A stretch of 64,000 nt of DNA from an uncultured Lachnospiraceae bacterium (GTDB taxonomy: Bacteria > Bacillota > Clostridia > Lachnospirales > Lachnospiraceae), in contig CANRGB010000002.1 of assembly GCA_947630005.1 (NCBI GenBank), positions 1-64,000 on the forward strand. The letters run 5' to 3'. Of the stretch, positions 6,445 through 50,448 are shown piece after piece. The position numbers and the translations under genes are program-made. Every line of letters starts with the position of its first letter. The first letter of the stretch is position 1. The notes beneath the pieces were generated by a model that saw nothing but the letters and a program-made list of their open reading frames with translations, was not told the DNA's origin and did no database searches.

Positions 6445-6693
6445 TCGAGAAGGAGGCGGTTTTTCCTCCTGCCCGCCTGCGCGGCCCGCATGCTGCGCAG
6501 CAGCTGGTTTCCATGCCTGGGCCTGTGATCGGGCAGGAGGCGGTTTTTCCTCCTGCTCGCCTGCGCGGCCCGCATGCTGCGCAGCAGCTGATTTCCTTAT
6601 GCGGGCCTGTGATCGGGCAGGAGGTGGTTTTTCCTCCTGCTCGCCTGCGCGGCCCGCATGCTGCGTCAGCAGCTGATTTCCTTATGCGGGCCT
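6441..6693 (+). repeat. Three tandem ~84-bp units of a palindromic REP-like element
   Basis: Units starting at 6441, 6525 and 6609: GTGATCGGGCAGGAGGCGGTTTTTCCTCCTGCTCGCCTGCGCGGCCCGCATGCTGCGCAGCAGCTGATTTCCTTATGCGGGCCT; inner inverted repeat GGCCCGCAT/ATGCGGGCC. Confidence 0.9.
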
Positions 6694-6829: not shown

Positions 6830-7597
6830 TTATGACAGAAGAGAAAGCTTCTGGAGCGCCTGACCGGAAACGATGGTCTCCATATGCTCTGAAAAATAAG
6901 CGTCCATACCGGCCGAGTATTTGCAGGGAACCGCGTACTCGGAGAGGATGTTGCAGACTTTGTTGAAGTTTTCCGCGGGGCTGGTATCCTTCCGGAGGAT
7001 CAGATAATAGTCCCCGCTGTCCGGATTTTTGTAGAGCGCGTTCGGACCCTGGAACATGTCTCCCAGGATTCCGGCGGAGCGGATCACATTATCCAGCGAA
7101 TGGAAGAGATACAGCCTGGAGAGATTCAGAATCTCCGCGTCTTCCTGCGCAGGCTCTTCCGTTTCGGAAGCCTTCTGCCTGCCGCCTGCCGACTTTGCAG
7201 CCTGTTTTTTTGCCTCGGATATCCGATGGATCAGATCAATGATGTCATCGGCCCCTTCCATGCGTTCCATCAGATCTGTAAAAGAGGAGATAGAATCATT
7301 TTCTCCGTCGTCCGATGAGAAGCGCGAGAATCTGGTATCCAGTTCCTCAGGATCATCCACTTTGGTGATTACCACCAGGATGGCGTCCATGGAAATGGGA
7401 ATTGCTTCTATCACTAGCGGCATGTTGTCGGCTTCGAATCCGAAATCCTGAGCCGCCAGCCGCATCATATCCTGAAACAGTTCCTTCGCTTTGTCAGAGC
7501 CATAGGCCAGCTCGCTCAGTTTCAGCTCTCTGCTTGCAAGATCTTCTCTTGTCAGGGTACAGCGTATTTGTTTGTCACTGATTTTCTCGATTTTCAT
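6830..7597 (-). CDS. mecA: Adaptor protein MecA
   Basis: MKIEKISDKQIRCTLTREDL... and two-domain MecA-like layout (LYLFHSLDNVIRSAGIL; C-terminal LSEYAVPCKYSAGMDAYFSEHMETIVSGQAL). Confidence 0.85.
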   Translation of the reverse strand: MKIEKISDKQIRCTLTREDLASRELKLSELAYGSDKAKELFQDMMRLAAQDFGFEADNMPLVIEAIPISMDAILVVITKVDDPEELDTRFSRFSSDDGENDSISSFTDLMERMEGADDIIDLIHRISEAKKQAAKSAGGRQKASETEEPAQEDAEILNLSRLYLFHSLDNVIRSAGILGDMFQGPNALYKNPDSGDYYLILRKDTSPAENFNKVCNILSEYAVPCKYSAGMDAYFSEHMETIVSGQALQKLSLLS

Positions 7598-7732
7598 TTA
7601 ATCACATCCTTACCCATTAAATTGCAGACATGGAAAATAATCCCACGCGAAAAAACCATTTGCGTTTGCTCCAATACTATTATATACGTAATCAGGCCTT
7701 GATGTAAAGTGGATAAAAATGTGTAAAAAAGC

Positions 7733-7761
7733 TTGCATAATCAGCCCTTATTGTATATAAT
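7733..7761 (+). promoter_or_regulatory. Vegetative sigma-A promoter
   Basis: TTGCAT (7733-7738), 17-bp spacer, TATAAT (7756-7761). Confidence 0.75.
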
Positions 7762-7764
7762 AGT

Positions 7765-8035
7765 CATACGGGAGGCTATATGGCGTCATCCTTTAAGAAA
7801 GGAGGATACTCTTTATAGCTGTTTAAGAATCTTATTATCTGCTTTCAGAAATTCTGATTCCAGTCGGTGACAATCCTGTTCCCGGAAGATCCGGGATGCT
7901 GTGAAGACGGCGGATTGCCGCTCCGGTCATACGGACTATCGTCCAAGGTTCATCAGCAAGATCTGCTGTGCTGCCCTGTTTGATTATGAAATGACGATTC
8001 CATATATCCTTTCGCATACCCTTTTACGCATTATA
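7765..8035 (+). ncRNA. Candidate structured non-coding RNA (class unknown)
   Basis: Promoter directly upstream; 5' GGCTATATGGCGTCA (7774-7788) pairs with 3' TGACG-att-CCATATATCC (7992-8009); internal hairpins CCCGG-aagat-CCGGG, GCGG-attg-CCGC, CAGCA-agatc-TGCTG. No convincing plus-strand ORF. Confidence 0.55.
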
Positions 8036-8261
8036 ATCAATTTCTTTTTGTTACGCAAGTAGATTCTGAAATAACTGCGGTTTTGTAAACGCTGAGTTGC
8101 CGGCCGGAAGGAAAGCGTGCCGGGAAACCGCGTTTTCGGACGCGCGGCAGTGTTTCAGAAGGGCGTCTGTTTCCGCGGAAGCTTTTCATATTATAATATA
8201 TCACGGCTGAGGACGCACCTTCTATGAAAATGCAGAGCGGAGACAGGGAAAGGCAGGAAAA

Positions 8262-8708: not shown

Positions 8709-10424
8709 GTGAAGAAAACGGGAAAAAAGACCCCAAAAGCAGGGGCGGCAAGGGCAGCGGCGATCGCGGTCTGCGTCGTGCTGGCGGGGATTATCATATA
8801 TGCGGCCGTCAGATATGTGCCCACGCGGAAGCGAATGGGAGCGGATGAATATTTCGGCACGCTGAAAGAGGATGAACTGGCGGTGGTCGCGGAGGACCAT
8901 GTGGCGAAGGAGCGGGCGCGCTGGATCGACGACGCGCTGTATGTGGATTACGGCCTCGTCCGAAGCGAGCTGAATCCGCGCTTTTACTGGGATGATTCGG
9001 AGGGACTGATGCTGTTTACGACGGCGCTTGAGGTCTATGAGATCGCTCCGGACAGCGCTTCCTACACAGTGGACGGTAAGGAACAGGACGCCGGCCATGT
9101 GATCGTGCAGAACGCGGACGGCGGAATGTATCTGTCGCTGGATTTCCTCTGTGAACACTCGGATTTTACATACGAGATATTTGAGGATCCCGCGAGGCTT
9201 GTGATCACGTTCGGGGGCGTAACGAGGACGGAGGCGGCGGTCGTGAAAAAAACGGCTGTCCGGTATCGGGGCGGGATCAAGAGCCCGATCCTGACGGAAG
9301 TCCCGAAGGGGACCAAGGTTGTGGTTCTGCAGCAGCTGGAGAACTGGTCCGAGGTGGCCGCGCCGGACGGATATATCGGCTATCTGAAAAACAGCTGTCT
9401 GGGAGAGACGGAGGAGTCCGCGCGGGATTCCGTCTATACCGGCCCGGAATACACCAGCTTATCGATGGACGGACGCGTGGATCTTGTCTGGCATCAGATC
9501 GACCTTAAGGAGATGAACGATAATTTTGAGAAAGATACCGCTGCCATGAGCGGAGTGAACGTCATCTCGCCGACCTGGTATTTCCTCTCCGACAGCGAGG
9601 GAGCCATTGATTCCTTTGCGGATGTTTCCTATGTGGAGAAAGCGCACGCGGCGGGCCTTCAGGTCTGGGCGCTGATCAGTAATTTCAGCCAGAATGTCAG
9701 CACGAGCGAGCTGCTGGCGTCGAGAAAGGCGCGGAAGCGGGTGCAGGAGTATCTGATCTCGGAGGCGCTGACTGTCGGATTTGACGGGATCAATATCGAT
9801 TTTGAAGGGATCGCGGAGAGCGCCGGATACGATTACGTTCAGTTCATGCGGGAGCTGTCCATACTCTGCCGCAGGGAGGGACTGTTCCTCTCCGTGGACG
9901 TCCCGGTTCCGATGGATTTCTCGCGCCATTATGACAGAAAGGAGCTCGGAGTCGTCTGCGATTATGTGATCATGATGGGCTACGACGAGCATTACGCCGG
10001 CTCCGATATCACCGGAAGTGTGGCCTCCCTTGACTTTGAGCGGACCGGGATCGCGAACATGCTCCGGGAGGTGCCGAAAGAAAAAGTGGTCAGCGCGATT
10101 CCTTTCTATACGCGGCTCTGGTATACCGAGACGTACGCGGACGGTACGACGAACGTCACGAGCAGGGCGCTCGGCATGGGAAGGGCGTGGGAGATTCTCG
10201 AGGAGAACGGCGTGACGGCCGTCTGGGACGAGTCCGCCGAGCAGCCGTACGGCGAGTGGACGGATGCGGAAGGACTTTTCTGCCAGCTGTGGCTTGAGGA
10301 CGATTCCACGGTGGCGGAGCGGGCTTCGCTCGTAAAAGAAAACGACCTCGGCGGCATAGCCGCGTGGGTGCTGGGAAACGAGCTGGATTATGTCTGGAAA
10401 GTGATCACGGAAAACATCGGATGA
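8709..10424 (+). CDS. Glycoside hydrolase family 18 protein with N-terminal TM and SH3-like domain
   Basis: GH18 motif FDGINIDFEGI (DxxDxDxE); SH3-like GTKVVVLQQLENWSEVAAPDGYIGYL; N-terminal TM. Confidence 0.9.
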   Translation: MKKTGKKTPKAGAARAAAIAVCVVLAGIIIYAAVRYVPTRKRMGADEYFGTLKEDELAVVAEDHVAKERARWIDDALYVDYGLVRSELNPRFYWDDSEGLMLFTTALEVYEIAPDSASYTVDGKEQDAGHVIVQNADGGMYLSLDFLCEHSDFTYEIFEDPARLVITFGGVTRTEAAVVKKTAVRYRGGIKSPILTEVPKGTKVVVLQQLENWSEVAAPDGYIGYLKNSCLGETEESARDSVYTGPEYTSLSMDGRVDLVWHQIDLKEMNDNFEKDTAAMSGVNVISPTWYFLSDSEGAIDSFADVSYVEKAHAAGLQVWALISNFSQNVSTSELLASRKARKRVQEYLISEALTVGFDGINIDFEGIAESAGYDYVQFMRELSILCRREGLFLSVDVPVPMDFSRHYDRKELGVVCDYVIMMGYDEHYAGSDITGSVASLDFERTGIANMLREVPKEKVVSAIPFYTRLWYTETYADGTTNVTSRALGMGRAWEILEENGVTAVWDESAEQPYGEWTDAEGLFCQLWLEDDSTVAERASLVKENDLGGIAAWVLGNELDYVWKVITENIG

Positions 10425-50248: not shown

Positions 50249-50360
50249 GGTATTGGGGTCAAAAGGTATTTTGCCCCCATGATGCCACGGATTTCTCCGC
50301 ACTTCGTGCTTCCGAAATCCTGAAACACCTCAAATCCGCGCATTTTTCCATGAAAAATGG

Positions 50361-50448
50361 CTCCTTTTCGGTGTTTTTGGGGTCTCAGTGTCATGCTTTT
50401 CCATGTGAACATGGAACGCATGACCTTTCGACCCTGGCATCATGATAT
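50361..50448. repeat. ~88-bp direct repeat, copy 2 (offset exactly 200 bp)
   Basis: ccttttcggtgtttttggggtctcagtgtcatgcttttccatgtgaacatggaacgcatgacctttcgaccctggcatcatgatat. Confidence 0.9.

Follow-up and report, generated by a model that had tools for sequence, protein, structure and literature searches.

It was concluded, with moderate confidence, that the stretch following the promoter P+ in the window (the whole DNA of 64,000 nucleotides that was analysed) forms the core of a long (~490 nt) structured 5' untranslated leader of the orf78 mRNA, transcribed from P+. Judging from sequence comparisons, the leader most likely controls the use of orf78. An earlier note on this DNA had proposed a stand-alone structured non-coding RNA. 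A promoter-driven structured RNA on the plus strand was retained from that proposal, whereas its stand-alone nature was considered less likely than a 5' leader of orf78, because no terminators were found, a second covarying helix occurred in related genera and the element co-occurred with orf78. The region was judged to encode a real structured RNA outside Rfam, about which the earlier note was wrong only in kind. Two features were absent from it, namely the connection with the downstream orf78 and a strongly conserved minus-strand promoter that faces P+ from the far end (8058-8030).

Results

Promoter, fold and coding capacity

The element was located within the 664-bp intergenic region between mecA and orf78, on a contig of a draft bacterial genome (G000:C2), presumably from Lachnospiraceae or a closely related group. 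The features of the locus are listed in Table 1.

Table 1. Features of the mecA-orf78 locus (positions in the window)
Feature	Position	Strand	Basis or remark
mecA	6830..7597	-	Pfam MecA, 1e-67; transcribed divergently from a separate promoter
mecA promoter TTTACA-18-TATAAT	7679-7708	-	promoter scan
Promoter P+, TTGCAT-17-TATAAT	7733..7761	+	TTGCAT 7733-7738, 17-bp spacer, TATAAT 7756-7761; TTGnnn-17-TATAAT at the same place in related loci
Structured 5' leader RNA (inferred)	7768..8261	+	start site to orf78 start codon; structured core 7769-8014
Closing stem, 5' arm (A)	7769..7789	+	genus covariation; cross-genus arm-swap tests
AAGAAAGGAGG, Shine-Dalgarno-like (C), no start codon	7795..7805	+	near-invariant in the genus, frequent in other genera
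Inner helix, 5' side GAATCTT	7827..7833	+	pairs with 7945-7951
Small hairpin GGAC-UAUC-GUCC	7933..7944	+	a relative has a double-sided change of one pair
Inner helix, 3' side AAGGTTC	7945..7951	+	pairs with 7827-7833
Closing stem, 3' arm (A')	7991..8014	+	minimum-energy fold; genus covariation
Promoter P-, TTGCGT-17-TATAAT	8030..8058	-	TTGCGT 8058-8053, 17 bp, TATAAT 8035-8030; genus-specific
TATCACG motif	8199..8205	+	upstream of orf78 in 74/81 leaders
orf78, small conserved gene, 78 aa	8262..8498	+	presumably controlled by the leader
Glycosyl hydrolase family 18 protein with SH3 domain	8709..10424	+	downstream of orf78

The promoter of the earlier note was found exactly as described and recurred in related genomes. 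It had been omitted by a strict promoter scan because TTGCAT agrees with TTGACA at only three of six positions; P+ is supported by its conservation across related genomes. Transcription from P+ would start at ~7768, and the 3' extent of the leader was deduced from the lack of terminators.

The minimum-energy fold contained the stem CGGGAGGCTATATGGCGTCAT/ATGACGATTCCATATATCCTTTCG, which corresponded to the long closing stem noted earlier and which covaried both within the genus and across genera. The plus strand of the region (273 nt) folded with an energy of -83.1 kcal/mol (z = -2.4), with 2 of 200 shuffles being equally good, and the minus strand folded about equally well (z = -2.8). Since the plus-strand fold exceeded the shuffles only modestly and was matched by the minus strand, the folding energy alone decided neither the reality of the structure nor its strand, and hence the case depends on the comparison with relatives.

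The earlier note had also held that the region contained no convincing plus-strand ORF. Indeed, no plus-strand ORF of at least 60 aa was found there. A small coding ORF was rejected as well: a 12-codon frame at 7780 (MASSFKKGGYSL-stop) was limited to close relatives, was disrupted in locus L012 and was not conserved over the genus, and the frames following the Shine-Dalgarno-like element varied between relatives.

Several other features of the locus and the window were recorded. The CCACTTTACATAT -35 region of the mecA promoter could still be made out ahead of the mecA genes of distant relatives. A GC-rich repeat of ~107 bp (GCGGGCCTGTGATCGGGCAGGAGG...) was present in two to three copies at 6500-6690 of the window, directly after a phospholipase D-like gene. 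The Clostridiales-1 RNA (RF01699) had two copies in the window, 2325-2498 and 50280-50442, both on the minus strand; another copy was found in L069 and a fragment beside mecA in L005, so that its distribution was dispersed and repeat-like.

Conservation within the genus

The region upstream of mecA was compared with that of 46 other genomes of the same genus, in which the element was present nearly everywhere. The exceptions were L077, apparently lacking the element, and genome G035, lacking a mecA match. The MecA identity was only ~60% in distant members of the genus. The order of the segments was TTGCnn or TTGAnn-17-TATAAT, 7-8 nt, GAAAGGnTATAyGG, AGAAAGGAGG, a core that varies, GCTGTACTTCCC in most cases, and CCrTATAnCCTTTC, and the element length ranged from 70 to 258 nt.

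The closing stem was evaluated in an alignment of 37 distinct sequences anchored at the promoter and at the CCTTTC end. In this alignment 81% of the stem cells were paired, compared with 29-48% when the arms were slid by 1-3 columns. Covariation among homologs, proposed earlier as a check, was borne out by 29 double-sided changes, where shuffled sequences gave 15.7 +/- 3.2 (0 of 500), as well as by the positive cross-genus arm-swap test described below. The inner helices were derived from the six closest sequences, and seven pairs were changed on both sides overall. The helices of a structured non-coding RNA were thus supported by covariation.

Additionally, a covariance model was built from 13 genus sequences and served solely for a copy-number test. 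It matched 30 of the 47 genus genomes, essentially at one locus apiece, missed the longer variant of the window itself and found no other genus among 200 genomes of the family.

Two irregularities were observed among the genus loci. Palindromic or repeated inserts were located between the elements and the flanking promoters in L006, L064 and L066 (in the latter two between A' and P-), which suggests small mobile repeats landing there. Genome G008 carried the locus in two slightly different copies on separate contigs (L017 and L057), and it is probably a mixed draft genome.

Conservation of the closing stem across genera

Homologues of orf78 were found in 90 of 249 genomes of the family, and most of the fetched loci had a divergent mecA within 200-850 bp. 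The intergenic regions of other genera had almost no sequence in common with the window. They began with a promoter resembling P+ and a stem arm behind it, the complement of which came 70-330 nt later; such arm pairs were of the AGAAGATAGT/ACTATCTTCT type, TGTGAAATGATGTGT/ACACATCATTTCGCA, TGAGAAGAGATC/GATCTCTTCTCA and TAGGAGATTTGAGGC/GCCTCAAATCTCTTA. Only the Shine-Dalgarno-like C and TATCACG remained as short motifs between the genera.

The pairing was assessed by an arm-swap test on 46 loci of the same family outside the genus of the window, with a variant run on 36 of them. Score was the sole criterion for the promoter, the arm was placed at a fixed offset from it, and the pairing had no part in the choice. 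The contiguous helices of the loci's own A and A' averaged -18.2 kcal/mol versus -12.6 +/- 0.39 kcal/mol for permuted partners, and the own mean was never reached in 10000 permutations (the best being -14.1); the loci are mutually related and the permutation extremes should not be read as exact probabilities, and since related partners strengthen the permuted set, the contrast is conservative. The pairing was also stronger on the plus than on the minus strand (p = 0.00092, 46 loci). The combination of synteny and the arm-swap test recovered the layout in dozens of loci, whereas the genus covariance model recovered none beyond the genus. The element is a structured RNA, conserved in an abundant gut-type bacterial group, that escapes covariance models based on sequence.

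Connection with orf78

It was also observed that, in many other genera, the segment directly after A (B) was complementary to the 60 nt preceding the orf78 start (B'). The helices were TGATAGCCACGTTC/GGATGTGGTTATCA (L118), TGATAGCTACG/CGTAGCTATCA (L139), TGATAACTATG/CATAGTTATCA (L138), TGTAACTATG/CATAGTTACA (L163), GGATAAATA/TATTTATCC (L133) and CAGGCAGCTGTG/CGCAGCTGTCTG (L195), with GATAGCCAC/GTGGTTATC, GATAACTATG/CATAGTTATC, GTAACTATG/CATAGTTAC and AATCGGA/TCCGATT as further examples. Own B/B' pairs scored -13.2 versus -9.87 +/- 0.35 for permuted ones (best of 10000, -11.75), where the orf78 start codons were set by frame and Shine-Dalgarno sequence and may be off at single loci. Two controls with displaced windows were null (p = 0.14 and 0.35). 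The B/B' pairing was looked for in the genus of the window and was not detected; there, the putative link with orf78 is drawn from its position, from the lack of terminators and from the relatives.

By a simple hairpin-plus-U rule, no intrinsic terminator was found between P+ and orf78 in any of 81 leaders, and the T content 3' of A' was equal to background. The orf78 loci without an adjacent mecA often retained the leader (for example L119, L120 and L134), and 19 mecA loci without a detected orf78 showed no A/A' signal on average (-11.6 versus -11.3). Hence, the element belongs to orf78. The promoter was upstream on the same strand and was conserved together with orf78, RNA and gene were not separated by a terminator, and in other genera, as distinct from that of the window, a covarying pairing reached the orf78 start region. 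A 5' leader of the orf78 mRNA is the simplest and most likely reading of these comparative data.

Searches of Pfam, NCBIfam and the PDB sequences gave no match for orf78, and its single-sequence AlphaFold model had no significant fold match in the PDB. The family consensus was ...EL..YE..G...L.G...SP..IV.A...EE..YMRDY..D...I....F.

The TATCACG motif often occurred as TATAATATATCACG, usually within ~100 nt of the orf78 start codon, and often preceded CCTCC or TCCTTTTGG. It was present beside orf78 even where no leader was found (L147 and L155). The motif may be a promoter, an operator or an RNA motif, and orf78 may be transcribed from a promoter of its own close to TATAATATATCACG.

Convergent promoter P-

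The best-conserved block in the genus was TTGATTATAATGCGTAAAAG on the minus strand, which was a part of P-. Of 44 genus loci, 39 had this promoter in the form TTGCnn-17-TATA(A/C)T. Within the genus, the best score of a minus-strand promoter 3' of A' was 13.4 versus 10.5 in shuffled sequences; in other genera it was 10.2 versus 10.1. The distance between P- and the stem varied from 13 to 157 nt in a part of the genus, and P+ was constant at 7-8 nt. Since P- was found in most genus loci and did not exceed the shuffles elsewhere, an antisense RNA over the leader is likely in the genus of the window, and antisense transcription, as judged by these scores, is not a part of the ancestral element. 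The G-U pairs of one subclade had at first hinted at a minus-strand RNA as the main product; this was rejected in view of the genus specificity of P- and of the cross-genus strand test favouring the plus strand.

Discussion

Alternative explanations

A stand-alone RNA gene of ~250 nt, the P+ transcript of which would end near A' through processing or termination and act in trans, is a rather doubtful alternative. It could act, for example, by pairing of B with an orf78 mRNA made from another promoter, or through contact with ribosomes or a protein. The strong promoter, the closed compact structure and the Shine-Dalgarno-like element without a start codon agree with such a gene, TATAATATATCACG near orf78 could be the promoter of orf78 itself, persisting as it does where the leader is missing, and a trans-acting RNA encoded beside its target would give identical B/B' covariation. 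However, none of the 81 loci had a terminator 3' of A', T was not enriched at that place, the RNA tracks orf78, and B' sits between A' and the start codon.

Regulation by a pair of fully overlapping convergent RNAs from P+ and P-, through antisense pairing or colliding polymerases, was judged improbable. Both strands fold well and P- is conserved with its 17-bp spacing, but genera without P- retain the plus-strand structure, which makes P- only an added layer, and its variable distance from the stem, unlike that of P+, argues against the pair in the same way. The least probable explanation, to which very little credence was given, is that there is no RNA element and that a DNA inverted repeat, such as two operator copies behind convergent promoters, folds by chance. 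Within the genus both ends do bear the motif GAAAGGATATAYGG downstream of a promoter. Outside it, however, the arms vary by locus yet stay complementary in the absence of P-, and the plus-strand pairing, including G-U pairs, exceeds that of the minus strand.

Proposed mechanism

We proposed that the orf78 mRNA would be transcribed from P+ and that its leader would act as a switch. The order A-B-A'-B' is interleaved, and thus the helices would form either a pseudoknot or two competing, mutually exclusive folds; switching between the folds would expose or hide the ribosome-binding region of orf78. C (AAAGGAGG) might serve as a decoy, competing with the orf78 Shine-Dalgarno sequence for the pyrimidine-rich stretch (CCTCC or TCCTTTTGG) behind TATCACG. 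The C/C' and C'/Shine-Dalgarno pairings were rejected, since exchanging the partners between loci made them no weaker (p = 0.75 and 0.94, respectively); hence the decoy at the ribosome site of orf78, suggested by C and by the pyrimidine stretch, is speculation. In the genus of the window, P- probably produces an antisense RNA over the leader as a second layer of control. Taken as a whole, a widespread leader outside the curated families, in which interleaved helices and a Shine-Dalgarno decoy switch orf78 translation under an overlaid genus-specific antisense promoter, is a tentative model. If true, it would describe a regulatory RNA retaining its shape but almost no sequence. The element provides a functionally uncharacterised small-protein family with a probable regulator, and the pairing model is concrete and testable.

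Comparison with known systems

No Rfam 15 family matched the region at the gathering score, in agreement with the earlier note, in which no known family had been recognised. Two likenesses suggested there were not supported. The element resembles 6S RNA in its end-joining closing stem, stand-alone-looking promoter and similar core length. However, 6S (RF00013) gave no match even at E up to 10, and the genome carries a separate 6S RNA on another contig (G000:C50:116-296); a 6S-like identity was thus rejected. The likeness to the raiA motif was limited to the length class, and RF03072 had no match in the window or the genome, where the control genomes were also silent and only the window result counts.

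A catalogue of 3161 predicted structured RNAs of the human microbiome (Fremin and Bhatt 2021, PMC8040213) could already list the element; neither mecA nor Lachnospiraceae occurs in its main text. No description of the element was found in literature searches.

The Shine-Dalgarno-like GAAAGGAGG near the 5' end, lacking a start codon, resembles the STAB-SD 5' mRNA stabilisers, in which the cry3A type carries GAAAGGAGG. The copy in the element sits inside a long-range closed structure.

Another comparison is with structured 5' leaders that control translation, such as riboswitch-type and ribosomal-protein leaders. The element shares with them a same-strand promoter, an untranslated segment, long and structured, ahead of a single gene with which it stays in synteny, and alternative or pseudoknotted long-range pairings close to the start codon. 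It differs in having no known ligand or protein and no match to an Rfam leader or riboswitch, and in that its sequence is hardly conserved between genera, whereas its pairing is conserved.
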